Of a stretch of 64,000 nt of DNA, positions 53,080 to 63,457 are shown piece after piece. Below the pieces are notes generated by a model. It saw only the letters and a program-made list of their open reading frames with translations, made no database searches and had not been told where the DNA came from. The position numbers and the translations under genes are program-made. Position 1 is the first letter of the stretch; each line of letters opens with the position of its first letter. Source of the DNA: Burkholderia lata (GTDB taxonomy: Bacteria; Pseudomonadota; Gammaproteobacteria; Burkholderiales; Burkholderiaceae); the NCBI RefSeq assembly GCF_000012945.1, contig NC_007510.1:1426001-1490000 (forward strand). The letters run 5' to 3'.

Positions 53080-53871
53080 TCAGGTGCCGGTCTGCGCGTT
53101 CAGGAACAGCGAGAACAGCTCCGACTGCGAGTTGATGGCGAGCTTTCCGTAGATGTTGCGGCGATGCACCTTGACCGTTTCGGCGGATATCGCCAGCTTG
53201 TTCGCGACTTCCTTGTTCGAGCGCCCGCTCAGGATCAACCGGATCACGTCGAGTTCGCGCGCGGTGAGCGGCGTGCCGAGCCGCGCCATCGCCTGCTCGA
53301 AGCCGTCGTGTGCGCCGGGCCGGCGCGGCGGCGCATGGTCCGCGGAGGCCGGCTCGAATGCGAGCCGCTGCCGCATCAGCCCGGCCACCCACGGCCGGAT
53401 CAGGTCGAGCAGCGCCACCTGCTCGGGGCTGAAGCGCCGCTTGCTGCCGAGCGACAGGCACAGCGTGCGCGCATCGTCGAGCACGACGTTGAACTGCACC
53501 TCGTCCTCGACGACGTTGTGCGTGAAATACAGCGTGTAGTACTCGGTATCGCGGAAGCATTCGGGCGCAACGTCGGACAGCCGGAACAGGCCGCTCTTCG
53601 GTGCGTCGCGGTTCGCGATGTAGAACGGGTCGAGCTGGTACAGGCCCTGCACGTAGTCGCGGAACAGCGGGTCGGGGCCGCCGCCTTCGTACGGGCATTC
53701 GGCGAACACCTGCGGGCGGCCGTCGCCGAACGTCAGCGCGACCCAGCTGTCGACCGCGACGTATTCCTCGATCAGCCGGATCAGCGCCAGCCAGAAGCCC
53801 GGCTGATCGAGCGACTCGATGAGCCGCCCGACCGACCGGTGCCATGCGACATCCTGCAAGGTGAGGTTCAT
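53080..53871 (-). CDS. LuxR-family transcriptional regulator
   Basis: A 263-residue regulator. Residues 1-180 form an uncharacterised sensor region (WHRSVGRLIESLDQPGFW...DSWVALTFGDG), without the typical acyl-homoserine-lactone residues that I could recognise. The C-terminus is a LuxR helix-turn-helix: LTARELDVIRLILSGRSNKE followed by LAISAETVKVHRRNIYGKL. An ATG four codons earlier (53883) is an alternative start. It may control the nitrilase-family gene downstream or the divergent secreted-protein gene. Confidence 0.85.
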   Translation of the reverse strand: MNLTLQDVAWHRSVGRLIESLDQPGFWLALIRLIEEYVAVDSWVALTFGDGRPQVFAECPYEGGGPDPLFRDYVQGLYQLDPFYIANRDAPKSGLFRLSDVAPECFRDTEYYTLYFTHNVVEDEVQFNVVLDDARTLCLSLGSKRRFSPEQVALLDLIRPWVAGLMRQRLAFEPASADHAPPRRPGAHDGFEQAMARLGTPLTARELDVIRLILSGRSNKEVANKLAISAETVKVHRRNIYGKLAINSQSELFSLFLNAQTGT

Positions 53872-53976
53872 GCGTAGGTCCATGTCGGCAGGTGCGATGC
53901 GCGCTTGCGGTGCCGCGCCGTGCGTGTACGCTACGGGCTCGCGGGCCGGTTCCCGCGCGCATCGAACGGAGCCTGG

Positions 53977-54744
53977 GTGAAGAACGAGATCGTAACGCCG
54001 GCCGGCGCGAATGGCGAGGCCGTACGCCGCCGCCGGTTCGCCGCGGCTGTCGCCGTGCGTGCTGCAATGGCATGCCTGGGCGCGACGGCCGGACAGGCGG
54101 CTGCCGCCGCGCCGCCGGCGTCGTGCAACGATCAACTGACGCAGTTGATCGTGCCGGCACTGCGGCAGACCGCGATGAACCGGCGCGACATCCATGCGGA
54201 CGTGGACGAGCGTGACGGCGATGTCTACCGCATCCGGCTGTTCACGATACCGGACCACTCGGGCACGCCGAATCGCGACGCGACGATCGGCTGGGTAACG
54301 CTCGACACGCAGGCGATGCGTGCGCTCGACGTCACGCGCGATCCCGACCGTCCGGACGTACTGAAGATCGACCGGCGCGCGTTGTCGCGTTTCGTGTCGA
54401 CCTGCGTTGCACCGGCGGCACCGGCCGCGCCCGTGCGCAGCGCCGTCGATTGCGATGCGCTGAACCGCCGCGCGCAGGCGCAGGGCGATTACGTGACGGG
54501 CAGCGACGCCGGGCGTGTCGTCACCGGCAAGGGGCGCCTGCCGTTCCATTCCGCGCCGGACGACGCGTGCCGGATCGACGGGTTGTTCATCGTCGAGCAC
54601 GATCACGTCGATGCGCGCACCGACTATGGTCGTTTCACGTCGGTCATCTATCTGAATCCGCGCACGCGCGGTATTGCCGAAGGGTGGGTGCAAACTGCGC
54701 GGCTGAAGCCGGACGGCACCGGCATCGCGCCACGGCAGCCGTGA
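53977..54744 (+). CDS. hypothetical secreted protein
   Basis: A 255-residue protein I do not recognise. The GTG at 53977 with GGAG six bases upstream gives a basic N-terminus (VRRRRFAAAVAVRAAM) and a hydrophobic signal ending in AAAAAP. Two halves follow: one with NRRDIHADVDERDGDVYRI and TIPDHSGTPNRDATIGWV, and one after residue 165 with two Cys, LPFHSAPDDACRIDGLFIVE and YGRFTSVIYLN. The second half looks like a small beta-rich ligand or SH3-like domain. It is followed 56 bases later by another unknown exported protein. Confidence 0.6.
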   Translation: MKNEIVTPAGANGEAVRRRRFAAAVAVRAAMACLGATAGQAAAAAPPASCNDQLTQLIVPALRQTAMNRRDIHADVDERDGDVYRIRLFTIPDHSGTPNRDATIGWVTLDTQAMRALDVTRDPDRPDVLKIDRRALSRFVSTCVAPAAPAAPVRSAVDCDALNRRAQAQGDYVTGSDAGRVVTGKGRLPFHSAPDDACRIDGLFIVEHDHVDARTDYGRFTSVIYLNPRTRGIAEGWVQTARLKPDGTGIAPRQP

Positions 54745-55667: not shown

Positions 55668-56597
55668 TCACACGTACAGATACCGCACGAGGTGGAAGAA
55701 CACCGGCGCGGCGAAGCAGATCGAGTCGACGCGATCGAGCATCCCGCCGTGGCCTGCGATCATCGAGCCCCAGTCCTTGGTGCCGAGCGAGCGCTTGACG
55801 GCCGACAGCACGAGGCCGCCGACGAAGCCCGCGATCACGATCGCGAGCGAGATGCCGAATGCCGATCCGAAGCTGAACGGCGTCACGCGATACAGCGATG
55901 CGCCGCACAGCGTGGCCAGCAAGCCGCCGCCGACGAACCCTTCGATCGTCTTCGACGGCGACAGCTGCGGCGCAATCTTGCGCTTGCCGAACAGCTTGCC
56001 GACCACGTACTGCAGCACGTCGCTGATCTGCACGACGAACAGGAAGAAGAACAGCAGCAGCGCGTTCTGCCCCGCGTAGTGCGGAATGTCGAGGATCAGT
56101 ACGGCCGGCGCGTGGCTCAACCCGTACACGCACACCATCAGCGCCCAGTTGATCTTCGCGTTGCGGCTCAGGAATTCGCGCGTGTCCTGCGTGAGTGCCG
56201 ATACGAGCGACATCGCGAAGAACAGGTGCACGGGCACGAAGATCGAATACATCCCGTACCAGTTGATCCCGAGCAACAGGTATTGCACGGGGATCGCGAC
56301 GAAGAACGCGATGAACAGCGTCGTATGGTCGCTTGCGGTGGTTGGCGTGAGCGTGATGAATTCGCGCAGCGTCAGGTAGGACAGCACCGCGAACACCAGG
56401 TACGTGATGTTGTTGCCGAGGCCGATCGCGATGGCCATGATCGCGATCATCGCCCACCACGCGCGGATGCGCTGGTTCAGGTTGACGATGGTCGCGCTCG
56501 TGCCGCCGCTGCGCGCGCCGAGGATCGCGCCGATCACGGTCGCGACGACGAGCACGCCCGTGACGCCCGCGACCAGTTCCCAGAAAATTGTTCGCAT
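55668..56597 (-). CDS. ynbB: CDP-diglyceride synthase-like (CdsA/YnbB family)
   Basis: Integral membrane cytidylyltransferase of 309 residues with about eight TM segments. It carries the CDS signature KRSLGTKDWGSMIAGHGG followed by MLDRVDS, so it should make CDP-diacylglycerol from phosphatidic acid and CTP. The ATG at 56597 precedes the first TM helix (FWELVAGVTGVLVVATVIG). It is 37 bases downstream of the PlsC-like gene in a leftward pair and faces the ynbA/C/D-like genes. E. coli YnbB has the same size and context. It is probably dedicated to this cluster rather than the housekeeping CdsA. Confidence 0.82.
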   Translation of the reverse strand: MRTIFWELVAGVTGVLVVATVIGAILGARSGGTSATIVNLNQRIRAWWAMIAIMAIAIGLGNNITYLVFAVLSYLTLREFITLTPTTASDHTTLFIAFFVAIPVQYLLLGINWYGMYSIFVPVHLFFAMSLVSALTQDTREFLSRNAKINWALMVCVYGLSHAPAVLILDIPHYAGQNALLLFFFLFVVQISDVLQYVVGKLFGKRKIAPQLSPSKTIEGFVGGGLLATLCGASLYRVTPFSFGSAFGISLAIVIAGFVGGLVLSAVKRSLGTKDWGSMIAGHGGMLDRVDSICFAAPVFFHLVRYLYV

Positions 56598-56634
56598 TGT
56601 TGATATCCGGAAAGGGGAGAAGAGGGCGCCGCGT

Positions 56635-57267
56635 TCAGCCGGCCGGCCGCTGCGGCGGCGCGAGCGCGACGACTGCGTCGCGCATGCGGGCGAGGAATGT
56701 CGGCTTGTCTTCCTGGGCACCGAGCGCGTCGTTCGCGCCGAAGTGCACCTTGCAGATCAGCGGCACCGGCCAGATCGCGCCCTTCGGCATGATCCGTTGC
56801 AGGTTCTCGAGATAGACGGGCGCGAGCGCGACGTCCGGAAACTCGGTCGCGAGGTGGAACAGGCCGCTCTTGAACGGCTGCGGCAGGATCTCGGCGCCGC
56901 GCGTGCCTTCCGGGAAGATGATGATCGAATGGCCCTGCTTGAGCGCATCGCGCACGGGGTCGAGCGGGTCGCCGCCGGATTCGCGGTGGCGGTCGATCAG
57001 CACGACGTTCAGCAGCTTCTGCGCGATGTGGCGCTTCATGTCGCTGCTGTCCCAGTAGTCGCGCGCGGCGACCGGCCGCACGACCGCACGCACGTTGCGC
57101 GGCAGCGCGGCGAGGATCGCGAGCGTGTCGATATGGCTCGTGTGGTTCGAGAAGTAGATCTTCTGCGTCGGGGACGGCGGCGCCTGATGCCAGACCGGAT
57201 ACGCGCCGGCGACGAGCCGCACGATGGACAGCAGGAAATCGCGCTGCCAGACGTTGAGAATGTTCAT
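56635..57267 (-). CDS. PlsC-like 1-acyl-glycerol-phosphate acyltransferase
   Basis: A 210-residue acyltransferase with the catalytic HX4D motif in SNHTSHIDTL and the acceptor-binding FPEGTRG. It lacks long TM segments except a hydrophobic N-terminus. By family it adds an acyl chain to lysophosphatidate, producing phosphatidic acid for the CdsA-like enzyme encoded next. GGAGG lies 11 bases before the ATG. It is divergent from the CDP-alcohol transferase gene. PlsC is not part of the E. coli ynb operon, so this is an added step. Confidence 0.87.
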   Translation of the reverse strand: MNILNVWQRDFLLSIVRLVAGAYPVWHQAPPSPTQKIYFSNHTSHIDTLAILAALPRNVRAVVRPVAARDYWDSSDMKRHIAQKLLNVVLIDRHRESGGDPLDPVRDALKQGHSIIIFPEGTRGAEILPQPFKSGLFHLATEFPDVALAPVYLENLQRIMPKGAIWPVPLICKVHFGANDALGAQEDKPTFLARMRDAVVALAPPQRPAG

Positions 57268-57723
57268 CGGCGCTGCGCCTCCTGCCTGCCTGCATGGCCC
57301 GCTGCGCGTGAGCGGCGGGCGGGACCCCGGAATGCCGGCGCGGCAGGATGCGCGCCGGACGGCCCTTGTTTAAATTTTTTCAAATTCGTGGCTGCCTGTC
57401 GCAGGTCCGCGATAATCGGACGGTTCGCCGTCACACGCTGTTGCGTCGCGGCGAATGCGCCGTTCGGCGGCGTGATAATCGGCTGTTGCACGAGTGCCCG
57501 TTTGCAGTTCGAATGGATCTCGCAGCGATCGGGCCAGCGGATTATCGCGAGTTTCCGTCAAAAACGCCAGATTGGCGCCGCGCGTGCGGGCCGGGCGCAT
57601 GCTTGACGCATCCGGGCCGCTCGGCGACGATTAGGGCCGTCCATGGAAGGCCGTCCAAGGCCGTTTCGCCGCCCGGGGCATGGCGGTGGGAAACGTATCC
57701 GACTGTGCCGCGCAAATAAAACG
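57268..57723. other. divergent promoter region of the lipid cluster
   Basis: These 456 bases separate the leftward plsC/cdsA-like genes from the rightward ynbA-like genes. No gene is supported. An AT-rich patch lies at 57366-57388. Three copies of a GATAATC word occur, at 57411, 57474 and, inverted, at 57540, and look like regulator sites. Confidence 0.55.
57408..57549. promoter_or_regulatory. three GATAATC-type repeats in the lipid-cluster promoter
   Basis: CGCGATAATC at 57408-57417 and its exact inverted copy GATTATCGCG at 57540-57549 flank a third copy; GATAATCGG occurs at 57411-57419 and again at 57474-57482, exactly 63 bases (six turns) apart. Their position between the two divergent halves suggests common control of all the lipid genes. 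Confidence 0.4.
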
Positions 57724-58329
57724 ATGAGCCTCTACGCACTCAAACCCAAATTCCAGAACCGTCTGCGCCCGTTCGCGAACGCGCTTGCCGAGCGCGGCGT
57801 CACGGCCAACCAGGTCACGCTGTTCGCGGCCGGTGGCTCGATCGTCGTCGGCGCGCTCGCCGGGCTCGGCGTGTTTGCCCGCGCGCTGTTCCTGCTGATC
57901 CCGCTGTGGCTGTTCGCGCGGATGGCGCTCAACGCAATCGACGGGATGCTCGCGCGCGAGCACAACCAGAAGAGCACGCTCGGCGCGTACCTGAACGAAC
58001 TCGGCGACGTCGTGTCCGATATCGCACTGGTGTTGCCGTTTCTCGCGATTCCCGTATTCGCTCCGGCAGACGTCTGGCTGTTCGCGCTGACAGCGGTGAT
58101 CGTCGAATGCGCGGGGCTGATCGGCCCGCTGGTCGGCGTGAGCCGCCGCTACGACGGCCCGTTCGGCAAGAGCGACCGCGCGCTCGCCCTCGGCGCGTTC
58201 GCGCTGTGGATCGGGCTCGGGTTTCCGGTCGGCGGCGTCGCAGCATGGTTGTGGCGGCTGCTGATCGTGCTGTCGATCGTGACCGTGGTGCGGCGTGTGC
58301 AGGCCGGCATCGCGGAAAAGGGCGGTTAA
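57724..58329 (+). CDS. ynbA: CDP-alcohol phosphatidyltransferase-like (YnbA family)
   Basis: Membrane enzyme of 201 residues with about six TM segments. It should transfer an alcohol head group to CDP-diacylglycerol. The active-site region reads NAIDGMLARE then LGAYLNELGDVVSDI. The canonical family motif begins Asp-x-x-Asp-Gly; here the first Asp is Asn70, with Asp73-Gly74, Ala77-Arg78, Asp95 and Asp99 kept, and Asn91 stands where Gly is usual. This deviation may mean a different head group or metal site. The length equals that of E. coli YnbA. It leads the rightward operon. The product lipid is unknown. Confidence 0.82.
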   Translation: MSLYALKPKFQNRLRPFANALAERGVTANQVTLFAAGGSIVVGALAGLGVFARALFLLIPLWLFARMALNAIDGMLAREHNQKSTLGAYLNELGDVVSDIALVLPFLAIPVFAPADVWLFALTAVIVECAGLIGPLVGVSRRYDGPFGKSDRALALGAFALWIGLGFPVGGVAAWLWRLLIVLSIVTVVRRVQAGIAEKGG

Positions 58330-58409
58330 AGGGTAGTCAGAGCAGTTGCAGTACCGGGCGCCGGAGGGCGGCGCACCAAGATTCGAATAACGAAACGAGA
58401 GAGAAACGC

Positions 58410-60179
58410 ATGAGCGCACGCATGGCCCGCGAGGCCGACTTCATCACGCACGACGGCGAAACGCTGTTCTATCGTCACTGGCCCGCCACGGGCGCGCGCT
58501 GCCGCGGCGCAATCGTGTTGCTGCATCGCGGCCACGAACACTCGGCGCGCGTCGCGCACCTCGTCGACGAGCTCGACCTGCCCGATTTCGCATTCTTCGC
58601 GTGGGATGCGCGCGGCCACGGCCGCTCGCCCGGCGCGCGCGGCTACAGCCCGAGCGCGGCCGCGTCGGTGCGCGACCTGCAGACCTTCGTTGAACATATC
58701 CGCGACACGCACGGCATCGCGATCGAGGACATGGCCGTGGTCGGCCAGAGCGTCGGCGCGGTGCTCGCGGCCACCTGGGCGCACGATTATGCGCCGCCGA
58801 TCCGCGCGCTCGTCGTCGCGTCGCCGGCGTTCCACATCAAGCTCTACGTACCGTTCGCGCGGCCGGGCCTGCGGCTGATGCACAAGCTGCGCGGGCTGTT
58901 CTACGTGAACAGCTACGTGAAGCCGAAATTCCTCACGCACGATCCCGAGCGGATCGCGAGCTATGCGTCCGACCCGCTGATCACGCGGCCGATCGCGGTC
59001 AACATGCTGCTCGACCTGCACGATACCGCGCAGCGGATCGTCGCCGACGCGGCCGCGATCACCGTGCCGACGCAGCTGCTGATCTCGGGCGCCGACTGGG
59101 TCGTGCATCGCGGCCCGCAGGACCGCTTCTTCGAGCGCCTCGGCGCCGCGCGCAAGGAGCGCATCGTGCTGCCGGGCTTCTATCACGACACGCTCGGCGA
59201 ACGCGACCGCGCGCAGGCGCTCGCACCGCTGCGTGCATTCGTGCTGCGGGAATTCGATGCGCCGAGCCCGCGCGTGTCGCTCGCCGACGCCGACCGGCGC
59301 GGCGCGTTCCACGACGAATACGCGGCGCTCGGCCGCCCGCCCGCGAATGCGTTCGCGCGGGCGTACTGGGCGCTCACGCGCGCCGGCCTGAAGGCCGGCG
59401 GCGCGCTGTCGGACGGCATCGCGCTCGGGCTGCGGCTCGGCTTCGATTCGGGCTCGACGCTCGACTACGTGTACCGCAACCGCGCGCAGGGGCGTCTCGG
59501 CGTCGGCGCGCTGATCGATCGCACCTATCTCGATTCGCCAGGCTGGGTCGGCATCCGCCAGCGCAAGGTGCATCTGCAGGAACTGATCGGCGCGGCGATC
59601 GGCCGCCTGCGCGGCCACGGCGCGCCGGTGCGGATCGTCGACATCGCGGCCGGGCACGGGCGCTACGTGCTCGACGCGATCGCGTCGGCCGCCGAGCGCG
59701 ACGGCGCGGCGCCCGACGACATCACGCTGCGCGACTACAGCCCGCCGAACGTCGAGGCCGGGCGCGTGCTGATTGCGCAGCGCGGCCTCGATCCGATTGC
59801 GCGCTTCGAGCGCGGCGACGCGTTCGACGAGGCGTCGCTCGCGACGCTCGAGCCGCGTCCGACGCTCGCGATCGTGTCGGGCCTCTACGAGCTGTTCGGC
59901 GAGAACGCGCTGATCGAGCGCTCGCTGCGCGGGCTCGCGCAGGCCGTGCCGCCGGGCGGCTATCTCGTCTATACGGGGCAGCCGTGGCATCCGCAGCTCG
60001 AATTCATCGCGCGCGCGCTGAACAATCACCGCGGCGAAGCGACCTGGGTGATGCGCCGGCGCTCGCAGGCCGAGATGGACGAACTCGTCGCGCGCGCGGG
60101 CTTCCGCAAGCTCGACCAGCGGATCGACGAAATGGGCATCTTCACGGTCAGCCTCGCGCAGCGGGTCGACGCGTCATGA
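58410..60179 (+). CDS. ynbC: alpha/beta hydrolase fused to SAM-dependent methyltransferase (YnbC family)
   Basis: A 589-residue two-enzyme protein. Residues about 10-285 are an alpha/beta hydrolase with nucleophile Ser114 in VGQSVGAV, Asp229 in SGADWVV and His259 in GFYHDTL, similar to monoacylglycerol lipases. Residues about 385-585 are a class I methyltransferase with SAM motif DIAAGHGRY (411-419), acidic Asp442 in LRDYSP and YTGQPWHP. E. coli YnbC has the same size. It may deacylate and methylate the lipid made by the neighbouring enzymes; this is inference. Its stop overlaps the next start (ATGA). Confidence 0.83.
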   Translation: MSARMAREADFITHDGETLFYRHWPATGARCRGAIVLLHRGHEHSARVAHLVDELDLPDFAFFAWDARGHGRSPGARGYSPSAAASVRDLQTFVEHIRDTHGIAIEDMAVVGQSVGAVLAATWAHDYAPPIRALVVASPAFHIKLYVPFARPGLRLMHKLRGLFYVNSYVKPKFLTHDPERIASYASDPLITRPIAVNMLLDLHDTAQRIVADAAAITVPTQLLISGADWVVHRGPQDRFFERLGAARKERIVLPGFYHDTLGERDRAQALAPLRAFVLREFDAPSPRVSLADADRRGAFHDEYAALGRPPANAFARAYWALTRAGLKAGGALSDGIALGLRLGFDSGSTLDYVYRNRAQGRLGVGALIDRTYLDSPGWVGIRQRKVHLQELIGAAIGRLRGHGAPVRIVDIAAGHGRYVLDAIASAAERDGAAPDDITLRDYSPPNVEAGRVLIAQRGLDPIARFERGDAFDEASLATLEPRPTLAIVSGLYELFGENALIERSLRGLAQAVPPGGYLVYTGQPWHPQLEFIARALNNHRGEATWVMRRRSQAEMDELVARAGFRKLDQRIDEMGIFTVSLAQRVDAS

Positions 60180-61582
60180 GCGCGCTCGACGGCGGCGCGA
60201 GCGGCCTCGCCGAGCCGGCCTCGGCGGCCGGCGCGCGCGACGCGTCGTTCGCGCTGCGCTTCGGCTGGCTCGCGGTGATGGGCGCCGTGTTCTTCTCGAC
60301 CTACGGTTTCGCGAACTGGCTCGCCGCGCGTCGCGCGGCGGTGCCGACTTTCGCGTTTGGCTGGGAACACGCGATCCCGTTCGTGCCGTGGACGATCGTG
60401 CCGTACTGGTCGATCGACCTGCTGTATGCGCTGTCGTTCTTCTTCTGGACGCGCCGCGCCGACCTGCTCGATCACGTGAAGCGGCTGTTGACCGTGCAGC
60501 TGATCTCGGTCGCATGCTTCATCGCGTGGCCGCTGCGTTTCGGGTTCGAGCGGCCCGACGCGGGTGGCGTGGCCGGTGCGCTGTTCACGCTGCTGATGGG
60601 CTTCGACAAGCCGTTCAACCAGGCGCCGTCGCTGCACATCGGGCTGCTCGTCGTGCTGTGGGCCGTCTATGCGAAGCACCTGCGCGGCACGCTCGCGCGG
60701 GTCGTGCTGCACCTGTGGTTCGCGGCGATCGGCGTGTCGGTGCTGACCACCTACCAGCATCACGCGATCGACGTGCCGACCGGCGCGGCCGTCGGCTGTC
60801 TCGCGCTGTTCCTGTTTCCGCTGCGCGATGCCGCGGGCCGGCTGCCGGGCGCCGATGCGTCGCCGGGCGCGGCCGGCCGTGCGCTCGCGCGCCGCTATGC
60901 GCTTGGCGCGGCGGCGGTTGCGCTGGTGGCGCTCTGGTGCGTGCCGCGCACGCCCGGCTGGGCGCTGGCGGCAGGGTGGGTCGCGCTGGCGCTCGCCTGT
61001 GTCGCGTGGATCTACCGGCGCGGTGCGCCCGGCGCATTCCAGAAGGACGCGCACGGGCGTTTTCCGGTCGTCATTCGCTGGCTGCTCGCGCCGACGATCG
61101 CGGGCGCGTTCGTCAATTCGCGGCTGTGGACGTTCCGGCAGCCGGCGCCGGTGCGGATCGACGAACGCGTATCTATCGGACGCACGCCGACCGCCCGCGA
61201 CGTGCGCCGCCACGGCTTCACCGCGCTGGTCGACCTGACCGCAGAAATGCCACGCTGGACCTCGGTGGATGCATCGCTCGCGTATGCGACCGTGCCGCAG
61301 CTCGATCTCGTGGCGCCGACGGCCGAACAACTCGCGCAGGCCGTCGCGGCGCTCGAACGCCTGCATGGGGAAGGGCGCAATGTGCTGGTCTGCTGCGCGC
61401 TCGGCTATGGCCGCAGCGTGCTGTGCGCGGCCGCATGGCTGGCGGCACGACGCGGGCTCGGCGATGCGCGCGACGCGCTGGCCGCGGTGCGTACGGTGAG
61501 GCCGCATGCGGTGTGGTCGGACGACGGCGTGGCCGTGCTGCAGCACTGGATCGATCGCCGGCGCGGCGCGGGAGGCGTGTGA
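60176..61582 (+). CDS. ynbD: PAP2-like phosphatase fused to dual-specificity phosphatase (YnbD family)
   Basis: A 468-residue membrane protein. The N-terminal PAP2-like domain has multiple TM segments with QAPSLHIG (151-154 PSLH) and the His195-Asp199 pair in YQHHAIDVP. The C-terminal cytosolic domain (about 325-460) is a dual-specificity phosphatase with the CX5R loop Cys407 to Arg413 in VCCALGYGRSV, where Cys replaces the usual His before the nucleophile. PTPMT1-type relatives dephosphorylate phosphatidylglycerophosphate, so it may remove the last phosphate from a phosphatidyl-alcohol phosphate. Start and stop both overlap neighbours. E. coli YnbD is the counterpart. Confidence 0.82.
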   Translation: MSALDGGASGLAEPASAAGARDASFALRFGWLAVMGAVFFSTYGFANWLAARRAAVPTFAFGWEHAIPFVPWTIVPYWSIDLLYALSFFFWTRRADLLDHVKRLLTVQLISVACFIAWPLRFGFERPDAGGVAGALFTLLMGFDKPFNQAPSLHIGLLVVLWAVYAKHLRGTLARVVLHLWFAAIGVSVLTTYQHHAIDVPTGAAVGCLALFLFPLRDAAGRLPGADASPGAAGRALARRYALGAAAVALVALWCVPRTPGWALAAGWVALALACVAWIYRRGAPGAFQKDAHGRFPVVIRWLLAPTIAGAFVNSRLWTFRQPAPVRIDERVSIGRTPTARDVRRHGFTALVDLTAEMPRWTSVDASLAYATVPQLDLVAPTAEQLAQAVAALERLHGEGRNVLVCCALGYGRSVLCAAAWLAARRGLGDARDALAAVRTVRPHAVWSDDGVAVLQHWIDRRRGAGGV

Positions 61583-62034
61583 TGCGCGATCCATCCGCGC
61601 CATTCAGGATTGCCGCCGCGCGCGGCGCGCTCGATGCGGGTGCGTGGGCGATCGCGGCCGCGCTGGCTGCGGCCGGTGCCGGCTGGTGGATCGCGTCGGG
61701 CTGGGCGCCGGCGACGATCGCCCGCGTGCTGCTGGCCGTTATCAGCACCGGGTCGGGGATCGCGGCACTGTGGTACGCGGTGCGGATCGAGATCGACCGC
61801 CGGCTGTTCGCCGCGCTCGCGCGTGCGGCGGCGGGCGACGAATCGGTCGACGGCGGGCTCGCGGCGCTCGACCGCGCGCTCGCCGATCTCGGCTGGATCG
61901 ATGCGTCGAAGGCCGGACGCGCACTCGACGCACGCGTGCGCGGCGCGGTCGGACTGTGCCGGGCCGGTGTGATCGTCGCGATCGTCCAGTGGCTCGCGGT
62001 CGGGCTCGCGATCGCCGTTCCGCAGATCGGCTAG
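61582..62034 (+). CDS. small membrane protein at the end of the lipid operon
   Basis: A 150-residue protein of unknown function. Three hydrophobic segments are visible: AGAWAIAAALAAAGAGWWIA, ATIARVLLAVISTGSGIAAL and GVIVAIVQWLAVGLAIAV, with a charged loop of about 55 residues (RIEIDRRLFAALARAAAGD) between the second and third. Its start codon shares the A of the preceding stop, so it is translationally coupled to the phosphatase fusion. It has no counterpart I know in E. coli ynb. It may be an accessory subunit. Confidence 0.75.
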   Translation: MRDPSAPFRIAAARGALDAGAWAIAAALAAAGAGWWIASGWAPATIARVLLAVISTGSGIAALWYAVRIEIDRRLFAALARAAAGDESVDGGLAALDRALADLGWIDASKAGRALDARVRGAVGLCRAGVIVAIVQWLAVGLAIAVPQIG

Positions 62035-62115: not shown

Positions 62116-63138
62116 TTACGCCTGAGCGACCCGCTGCGACCGCGTGCGCTTCACTTCATACATCGCCTGGTCCGCATGCTCGATCAGCGCGTTCATGTCG
62201 GTGCCGTCGTCGGGCAGCAGCGCGATCCCGACGCTGACGCCGAGCCGCATCGGGCGCCCCTCGAATTCGAACGGTTCGCCGACCTGGTGTGCGAGCCGCG
62301 TGCTTTGCGCATGCGCATCGTCGCGGTTGCCGATGTTCGGCAGGATCACCGCGAATTCGTCGCCGCCGATGCGCGCGACCGTGTCCGAGCGCCGCACCGC
62401 TCCCTGCATCCGCGAGGCGATCTCGCGCAGCGCCGCGTCGCCCGCACGGTGGCCGAGGCCATCGTTGATCGGCTTCAGCCCGTCCATGTCGATGTTGAGA
62501 ATGCCGAGGCGGCCGTTCGCGCGCAGCGTCGTGTGCATCGACTGCCGCAGGCGGTCGTAGAACAGCGCGCGGTTCGGCAGGCCGGTGAGCGCGTCGTGCG
62601 TCGCGCGCAGGTACAGCTCGTTCGCTTCGTTGCGCGCCGCGTGGAACATCGCGGCGGCGATCAGGTCGGCCGTCAGCCGCAGCGTGCCGGCGTCGGCTTG
62701 CGAAAAGCCGTCGACTTCCGGCGACATCACCTTCAGCACGCCGACGGTCGTGTCGGCATGGGTGAGCAGCATCACGAGCATCGAGCGCAGGCCGACCCGC
62801 CGGCAGGCGTCGCGATCGACGCGCGGGTCGATTTCCGAATCGATGCAGTGCAGCAACTCGCCTTGCTGCACGCACAGGCCCGACAGGCTGCCCGAGCGCC
62901 GCAGCCGCAGGCCGAGCATCCCGGCCGCGGTGCCCGACGCCGCGCGGTACACCATGTCGTCGCCCTCGGCGAATTCGACCGCGGCGGCGCTCGCGCCGGT
63001 GAGCTGCGGCACCTGCTCGGCCACATAGGCCATCACGCTGCCGAGATCGAGGCCGAGCTTCGCGATCTCGGTCTGCGCGGCGATGATGCGCAGCAGCGTA
63101 TCGGGGGACGGGGTGGCAGTGTCGACGATTTGATTCAA
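62116..63138 (-). CDS. GAF-GGDEF diguanylate cyclase
   Basis: Makes cyclic di-GMP from two GTP. The 340-residue protein has a GAF sensor (about 20-165) and a cyclase domain (about 175-335) with the intact ARIGGDEFAV active site near residue 258 and the inhibitory I-site RRSD five residues ahead. The only start compatible with a GGAAAA ribosome site is a TTG at 63138 (LNQIVDTA); longer frames read into arginine-rich noise. No TM segment is seen, so it is cytosolic. It is divergent from bcsB, whose product binds c-di-GMP-activated cellulose synthase, so it may supply the signal locally. Confidence 0.87.
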   Translation of the reverse strand: MNQIVDTATPSPDTLLRIIAAQTEIAKLGLDLGSVMAYVAEQVPQLTGASAAAVEFAEGDDMVYRAASGTAAGMLGLRLRRSGSLSGLCVQQGELLHCIDSEIDPRVDRDACRRVGLRSMLVMLLTHADTTVGVLKVMSPEVDGFSQADAGTLRLTADLIAAAMFHAARNEANELYLRATHDALTGLPNRALFYDRLRQSMHTTLRANGRLGILNIDMDGLKPINDGLGHRAGDAALREIASRMQGAVRRSDTVARIGGDEFAVILPNIGNRDDAHAQSTRLAHQVGEPFEFEGRPMRLGVSVGIALLPDDGTDMNALIEHADQAMYEVKRTRSQRVAQA

Positions 63139-63457
63139 GTCAGTTTTCCGTGAAAGAAAGCACGTCCGGCGGCTCGGGATTGCGGTAGCATACGCGCCGC
63201 CTCGCGGCCGCGCGTTCAGGCGGGGCGGTCTGCAACGGACCGCCGCCGGCCAGCCGCACCGCGCCGGCAGTATGCCGTCCGGCCTGCCGGGCGACAACGG
63301 CGCAATTCTTACCATTCATCTCGCTCGCGCAGCATTTCCGACCGGATTGAGGTTTTTTTCGCTTCAACATCGCGAATCGGGGTAAGTTTTGTCCTGTTTT
63401 TGAGATAGTGTGACGAATGGGCGTGTGCCAGTGCCAGGTGCGCGTAGCACGATGACA

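Follow-up and report, generated by a model that had tools for sequence, protein, structure and literature searches.

The stretch of DNA analysed here, called the window, comprises 64,000 nucleotides of the Burkholderia lata genome (contig NC_007510.1, positions 1,426,001 to 1,490,000), and its positions 55668..62034 carry a group of six genes, four of which are related to ynbA, ynbB, ynbC and ynbD of Escherichia coli. Verification of the open reading frames (ORFs) and of their Pfam matches confirmed the six genes at the coordinates and in the families given by the initial annotation, which described the group as a complete, undescribed phospholipid pathway. The genes form two divergent operons, PlsC-YnbB on the minus strand and YnbA-YnbC-YnbD-small protein on the plus strand:

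55668-56597, minus strand: YnbB-type CDP-diacylglycerol synthase (CdsA-like), 309 amino acids; PF01148 CTP_transf_1, E-value 5.9e-62; YnbB model, E-value 5.1e-141
56635-57267, minus strand: PlsC-like acyltransferase, 210 amino acids; PF01553, E-value 1.5e-15; NHxSHxD and FPEGTR motifs
57268-57723, no strand: intergenic region from which the two operons diverge, from the ORF coordinates
57724-58329, plus strand: YnbA, CDP-alcohol phosphotransferase, 201 amino acids; PF01066 CDP-OH_P_transf, E-value 1.1e-4; signature motif
58410-60179, plus strand: YnbC, hydrolase-methyltransferase fusion, 589 amino acids; PF12146 Hydrolase_4, 7.6e-71; PF12147 Methyltransf_20, 3e-135
60176-61582, plus strand: YnbD, PAP2-like membrane part and dual-specificity phosphatase (DSP) domain, 468 amino acids; DSPc, 9.7e-12
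61582-62034, plus strand: small membrane protein, 150 amino acids; no Pfam or NCBIfam match

The overlapping codons attributed to these operons exist at two junctions only, YnbC/YnbD (ATGA, 60176-60179) and YnbD/small protein (one base, 61582); YnbA and YnbC are separated by 80 bases, and PlsC and the CdsA-like gene by 37. The catalytic motifs of YnbB, PlsC, YnbC and YnbD are intact. Elsewhere in the genome, which counts 8,676,277 bases, there is a second, housekeeping CdsA (G000:C2:2377167-2377976), together with three CDP-alcohol phosphotransferases besides YnbA. The strongest new facts to come out of our analysis are the linkage of PlsC, YnbB and YnbA, and two Asp-to-Asn changes that YnbA has in common with a sister family.

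Conservation of the gene set was followed in two samples, which may overlap and which together provide 105 loci. The first is made of the 25 genomes with a strong YnbA (profile search, E < 1e-40) among 299 genomes of Pseudomonadota; at most 10 candidates were scored per genome and the count is a fair one. The second contains the best 80 of 582 confirmed relatives from a genome scan with the pattern NA[ILV]DGMLA, 7 of the 80 having less than 5.5 kb of sequence on one side of YnbA; the closest named relatives of the window cluster among these are Burkholderia. The complete six-gene set is found in 12 of the 25 profile-found loci and in 49 of the scan loci, and the three genes YnbA, YnbB and PlsC form the whole set in 6 and 12 loci, respectively; in the other seven profile-found loci, one to five of the genes are missing or lie elsewhere. 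YnbA, YnbB, YnbC and YnbD occur together in 13 of the 25. Co-occurrence of these genes, which the initial annotation had proposed beforehand as a test of its pathway, is seen across genera, classes and phyla. The methyltransferase family of YnbC, PF12147, is present in 17 of the 299 genomes; every one of these also belongs to the 25 with YnbA, the two genes being at most 2 kb apart on the same contig. Of the 105 loci, 77 have both YnbC and YnbD, 4 have YnbC without YnbD and 24 have neither; YnbD without YnbC is never observed. Hypergeometric values calculated for these co-occurrences take no account of common descent. Because of these counts, YnbD can be said to accompany YnbC, and both to be additions to something smaller: the gene set is layered, with PlsC, YnbB and YnbA as its core and YnbC and YnbD as add-ons. 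One locus (L140, in genome G110) is a decayed copy and a natural loss, with truncated YnbA and YnbB and no PlsC.

The window YnbB is readily recognized as a CDP-diacylglycerol synthase (210 bits with PF01148 for a cut-off of 24), and the C-terminal signature KD..G...GHGG..DR.DS is found in 74 of 75 YnbB matches. The CTP_transf_1 family is common to YnbB and CdsA, but YnbB-type proteins constitute a score class of their own and adjoin PlsC. The YnbB profile gave, over the 299 genomes, matches in 43 genomes at E 2e-73 or better and one with the truncated copy of G110 at 6e-51, the rest being at 1.2e-42 or weaker; these weaker matches cover chiefly the C-terminal part. A PlsC gene lies within 400 bp of 42 of the 44 YnbB-type genes, the exceptions being those of G110 and of genome G296. 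The acyltransferase, regarded in the initial annotation as an extension of the known set, is instead the tightest partner of YnbB, and it is the E. coli K-12 cluster that does not contain it. A transferase gene is located within 7.5 kb of 34 of the 44, YnbA in 21 cases and a member of the sister family in 13 (one of the latter, in G253, is a short frame of 87 residues, outside the motif counts given below). Conversely, a YnbB-type gene is present in 35 of the 36 genomes with an identified YnbA or sister.

This linkage points to a reassignment of YnbB. E. coli YnbB is reported to make CDP-diacylglycerol in vitro, its overproduction increases MPIase, it is unable to substitute for CdsA in bulk lipid supply, and deletion of ynbB affects neither growth nor, significantly, the level of MPIase (PMC6362211, PMC7018664). 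A title cited in these two papers presents YnbB as dedicated to MPIase; the YnbB study of Sato et al. (2019) is cited here through the text of PMC7018664 and PMC10881803. One could therefore imagine that YnbB and its neighbours are a backup for MPIase (GlcNAc-pyrophosphate-diacylglycerol plus a glycan), and that YnbA, YnbC and YnbD are unrelated passengers. The overproduction effect and the inability to replace CdsA speak for such a backup, and the lack of a significant MPIase change in the deletion mutant speaks against it, as does the distribution of PF07429, an ECA-type glycan family which we take to be WecF, the Fuc4NAc transferase of enterobacterial common antigen (ECA). PF07429, which matched E. 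coli only among 14 control genomes, is found in 1 of the 44 genomes with a YnbB-type gene, compared to 42 of 44 for PlsC and 34 of 44 for an adjacent YnbA or sister; the single genome is G296, probably an enterobacterium since it has PF07429. We therefore reject MPIase as the general role of YnbB and consider a backup function for the cluster highly improbable; it is more likely that E. coli YnbB serves YnbA rather than MPIase.

The other main observation concerns YnbA itself. The signature of the CDP-alcohol phosphotransferase superfamily, D-x2-DG-x2-AR-x8-G-x3-D-x3-D (its four Asp are numbered D1 to D4 below), comprises eight residues said to be absolutely conserved (PMC4634129). The window YnbA reaches the PF01066 cut-off (23 bits for 22) and its profile also matches solved CDP-alcohol phosphotransferases, but its motif reads N-x2-DG-x2-AR-x8-G-x3-N-x3-D (N70, D73, N91, D95); it is thus a sequence relative which departs from the signature at D1 and D3. 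These two changes do not figure in the initial annotation. Asn occupies D3 in all 25 profile-found YnbA and D1 in 24 of them, the exception (G287) having Ala; the annotated records (10 of 10) and the scan loci (80 of 80) all have both Asn, although in the scan loci the residue at D1 is in part imposed by the search pattern, D3 lying outside the search patterns. The Arg of AR is altered in 1 of 25 profile-found, 1 of 80 scan and 2 of 10 annotated proteins, and D2, D4, both Gly and the acceptor-pocket residues are near invariant. In contrast, the three other CDP-alcohol phosphotransferases of the window genome all have Asp at D1 and D3. As a control, 20 of the 55 places with a weaker match to the YnbA profile (E 1e-18 to 1e-5) were inspected, so that further sister genes may exist: 8 are Asp/Asp, and 12 form the sister family (L160-L170, L174), which also carries both Asn and in 12 of 12 replaces the Arg of AR by Val, Ile or Met. 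A YnbB-type gene and PlsC stand alongside the sister gene in 12 of 12 loci (neighbourhoods L180-L191). In a tree of 45 proteins, YnbA forms one group (support 99/99), the sister another (100/100), and the two are joined at 91/92; the join is kept at 87/84 when the three motif columns are blanked and one long row is omitted. A single origin of the Asn/Asn motif is favoured by this tree but not shown by it; several long branches leave its deep part unsure. The regular N/D/N/D motif of YnbA, with its two Asp-to-Asn changes common to the sister family, is new here.

In the solved relative MjPSS, D1 and D3 contact both metal ions, and activity was strongly reduced or lost when motif Asp were replaced by Ser or Asn (PMC8633023); YnbA might therefore be inactive or chemically different. 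One possibility is that YnbA is a pseudo-enzyme or a binding subunit, lipid remodelling being carried out by PlsC, the YnbC hydrolase and YnbD. This would agree with the loss of two of the four metal-site Asp and with the absence of the Arg of AR from all 12 sister proteins. We find it quite unlikely, however, inasmuch as the near invariance of D2, D4, the two Gly and the acceptor pocket fits a working active site, and YnbB is retained next to YnbA in the minimal sets. The presumed base is D4, whose change to Asn nearly abolished the activity of a phosphatidylinositol-phosphate (PIP) synthase (PMC4634129); this Asp is retained in YnbA.

As to the acceptor, the nearest named families of YnbA are the archaetidylinositol-phosphate and PIP synthases, all under cut-off (42.2 bits for a cut-off of 170 with the PIP synthase model NF045883 of NCBIfam). 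Its best solved profile match is 6h53 (RsPIPS; inositol 3-phosphatidyltransferase, E 7.2e-11), a PIP synthase of the same CDP-alcohol phosphotransferase family by profile, with basic acceptor-pocket residues that align with those of YnbA, from which it differs at D1 and D3, Asn in YnbA. Two Arg of the acceptor pocket are conserved in PIP synthases and thought to bind inositol phosphate (PMC4634129). In a 35-row alignment, basic positions of two PIP synthases are matched by K149 and R152 of YnbA and by the corresponding residues of the sister, R152 facing an Arg of the two and K149 a further Arg; identity is low there, and the placement of R153, within an ERPER stretch, is not fixed. R191, present in YnbA and sister, aligns with an Arg of one PIP synthase, the stretch of the other ending earlier. 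In the three other CDP-alcohol phosphotransferases of the window genome, the first two of these columns lack a basic residue, one of the proteins having a gap there. The pattern suggests that YnbA uses a phosphorylated acceptor.

Inositol-1-phosphate synthase (MIPS, PF01658) is found in only 4 of the 36 genomes with YnbA or sister, and a search of the window genome for PF01658 did not find it. A home-made inositol phosphate is thus an unlikely head group in most carriers, for which we reject an inositol lipid as the product. The same count bears on the idea that YnbA is a second synthase of phosphatidylglycerophosphate (PGP) or PI-phosphate, and that the cluster merely boosts phosphatidylglycerol (PG) or phosphatidylinositol (PI) under special conditions. 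YnbA is distantly similar to PIP synthase and PgsA models, and YnbD contains a phosphatase domain resembling PTPMT1, which is a PGP phosphatase. Yet PG would not obviously require a dedicated PlsC and CDP-diacylglycerol synthase, the YnbA signature is unlike that of the other CDP-alcohol phosphotransferases in the genome, and E. coli YnbD was reported to complement neither a PGP-phosphatase nor an undecaprenyl-pyrophosphate (C55-PP) phosphatase mutant (PMC7413402). We regard a second synthase of this kind as unlikely.

The add-on proteins have recognizable parts. For the predicted structure of YnbC (model pLDDT 89.7), the best Foldseek match is a monoglyceride lipase (3.0e-18). Its methyltransferase relatives provided no hint of a substrate, either in the sequence search (a single match, E 0.78) or in Foldseek (3ocj at rank 49). 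The membrane part of YnbD scores 19-21.5 bits with the PAP2 and PAP2_3 models of Pfam, under the cut-off of 27, but its PSLH and QHHxxD residues are invariant, and E. coli YnbD has been aligned as a PAP2 protein (PMC7413402). C407 is invariant in 35 aligned rows, including L042, L086, L033, L036 and L050. The structure search with the DSP domain placed PTPMT1 on top, tied with other DSPs within 1 Z; YnbD differs from PTPMT1 in having the PAP2-like membrane part in addition. Among the matches listed (60 of 93) for the YnbD profile against solved structures, only positions 307-441, the DSP end, were covered, and the matches listed in the structure searches were likewise all to this domain. PSLH and HHxxD resemble motifs of an AUR1-like head-group transferase, a conceivable role for the PAP2-like part. 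Proteins weakly similar to the small membrane protein are found in the equivalent place, with 19-38% identity outside Burkholderia. A small membrane protein is also encoded beside four three-gene modules (L135:861-1397, L136, L138, L191), that of L135 having a weak likeness to a VTT domain (29 bits for a cut-off of 33.9); here a lipid mover is possible. The haloarchaeal PGP methyl ester is a possible model for a methylated terminal phosphate, kept as an idea only; PF12147 had no match in Haloferax, one of the 14 controls, and a search of the Creative Commons-licensed papers in PubMed Central listed none on this ester.

Taken together, these data lead us to lean, with moderate confidence, towards a pathway dedicated to a minor phospholipid, whose head group would be phosphorylated and which YnbC and YnbD would tailor. 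PlsC would form phosphatidic acid, YnbB would convert it to CDP-diacylglycerol, and YnbA would transfer the phosphatidyl group onto a phosphorylated alcohol to give a phosphatidyl-X-phosphate. Where present, YnbC would act on this product by methylation dependent on S-adenosylmethionine and by acyl-ester chemistry, and YnbD, where present, would remove a phosphate from the tailored lipid by means of its PTPMT1-like domain, the small protein being its probable membrane partner. We infer all of the reactions, the identities of the substrates and the order of YnbC and YnbD from the genes, as we do the chemistry and the product as a whole. The linear route of the initial annotation holds for its first part, from PlsC through CDP-diacylglycerol synthase to YnbA, and fails as a single obligatory route, since PlsC-YnbB-YnbA alone is common. 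Its proposal that YnbD acts on the YnbA product ahead of YnbC fits poorly with the absence of loci having YnbD and not YnbC.

Several points weigh against a dedicated pathway of this kind, beginning with the increase of MPIase on YnbB overproduction and the MjPSS mutants discussed above. The failure of E. coli YnbD to complement a PGP-phosphatase mutant argues against glycerol as X. The module is dispensable, since YnbA is detected at E 1e-30 in 52 of 65 genomes of the genus Burkholderia and not in the 13 others. Nine PlsC-YnbB pairs (L192-L200) have no YnbA or sister within 7.5 kb, which implies some use of the pair without them, and G287 has a strong YnbA and no YnbB-type gene, this protein having, besides Ala at D1, Val for the Arg. 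YnbA-C-D-small is separate from PlsC-YnbB in 2 of the 25 profile-found loci (G043, G253), and the same is true of several named Rhizobium loci (L071, L079, L083, L085). Finally, YnbD is missing from a cyanobacterial set and from the minimal sets; either dephosphorylation is not always needed or it is done elsewhere.

A bolder and more tentative proposal is that YnbA and its sister are a new catalytic class, in which the carboxylates contacting both metals have become amides, and which, with its own PlsC and YnbB and a phosphorylated acceptor, would make an undescribed class of phospholipid in proteobacteria and other phyla, E. coli YnbB belonging to this pathway and not to that of MPIase; as a whole we hold it to be possible but rather doubtful. 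We give very little credence to a variant in which a less negative site would let the phosphate of the acceptor attack and yield a lipid with a pyrophosphate link, of which the GlcNAc-PP-diacylglycerol credited to CdsA and YnbB would be an example.

Comparison with named clusters helps to place the window set. The ynbABCD genes of E. coli K-12 (b1408-b1411) likewise assemble related YnbA, B, C and D in one cluster, and the correspondence in size noted earlier is borne out, with 201, 298, 585 and 430 amino acids compared to 201, 309, 589 and 468 in the window, for identities of 44%, 36%, 57% and 37%, respectively. However, neither a PlsC-like gene nor the small membrane protein is present in the K-12 cluster, where ynbB stands between ynbA and ynbC in a single row, not in a divergent operon. 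The initial reading was right in kind, as to a lipid pathway conserved as a unit, and wrong in shape: three genes make up the core, the tailoring is optional, the acyltransferase has a central place, and the E. coli set is the reduced one. All six families are found together, as in the window, on a plasmid of Citrobacter sp. TSA-1 and on a Shinella plasmid, with a gene order and strands unlike those of the window, where PlsC-YnbB is a divergent operon; the small protein is 19% identical to the window copy in Citrobacter and 38% in Shinella. A cyanobacterial plasmid carries YnbA, YnbB, PlsC and a stand-alone methyltransferase without the hydrolase or the phosphatase, and in a Fusobacterium record YnbC, YnbA and YnbB are consecutive.

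Some of these clusters have particular surroundings or forms. On the Citrobacter IncF plasmid (L008) the six-gene set is near transposase and recombinase genes, and an E. coli IncF plasmid (L009) has a copy with only a short YnbD frame. In Moraxella pNP7-2 (L010), YnbA and the first part of the YnbC hydrolase share a single ORF, which is closed by a stop; the remainder lies downstream, with genes for patatin, a short-chain dehydrogenase/reductase and a CDP-diacylglycerol synthase in the vicinity. The YnbC relative of a Kosakonia plasmid (L011) has another lipid-type context, being lined up with genes for an acyl-carrier protein, a ketosynthase, MaoC and FabG. In Burkholderia ambifaria (L013, NZ_CP066768.1), the whole cluster is on a circular 19-kb 'plasmid', beside bcsB and bcsZ; this circle may be a chromosomal fragment that was circularised in assembly. 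In the window, the cluster is flanked by a gene for a GAF-GGDEF diguanylate cyclase (62116-63315, minus strand) and, farther away, there is a LuxR-type regulator gene (53080-54693, minus strand).

Two members of the set cannot be called undescribed, YnbB (PMC6362211, PMC7018664) and YnbD (PMC7413402) being already in print, and ynb genes also appear in screens. Transposon sequencing of a strain having only phosphoglyceride-linked ECA flagged ynbB, which the authors consider unnecessary for that form (PMC8609368). Polyphosphate built up in a transposon mutant of ynbC in one background, but not in a deletion mutant in another (PMC2435150). EcoCyc withdrew a phosphatidylcholine synthesis reaction once assigned to YnbA, which it terms uncharacterised (PMC3781023), and ynbA insertions are tabulated in a cyclic di-GMP screen (PMC13031359). 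A Brucella regulon paper names pssA and separate genes, not a ynb-type cluster (PMC9491525). Among the papers listed by searches of the Creative Commons-licensed literature of PubMed Central, we found none that attributes a tested function to YnbA or reports the three-gene core or the Asn variant.

The ynbABCD genes are orphans of the best-studied bacterium, and their gene neighbourhoods now supply each of them with a partner and a predicted step. At the level of the family, the N/D/N/D motif challenges the claimed absolute conservation of the eight signature residues of CDP-alcohol phosphotransferases, and it poses the question of how the metal site would function without two of its four Asp.

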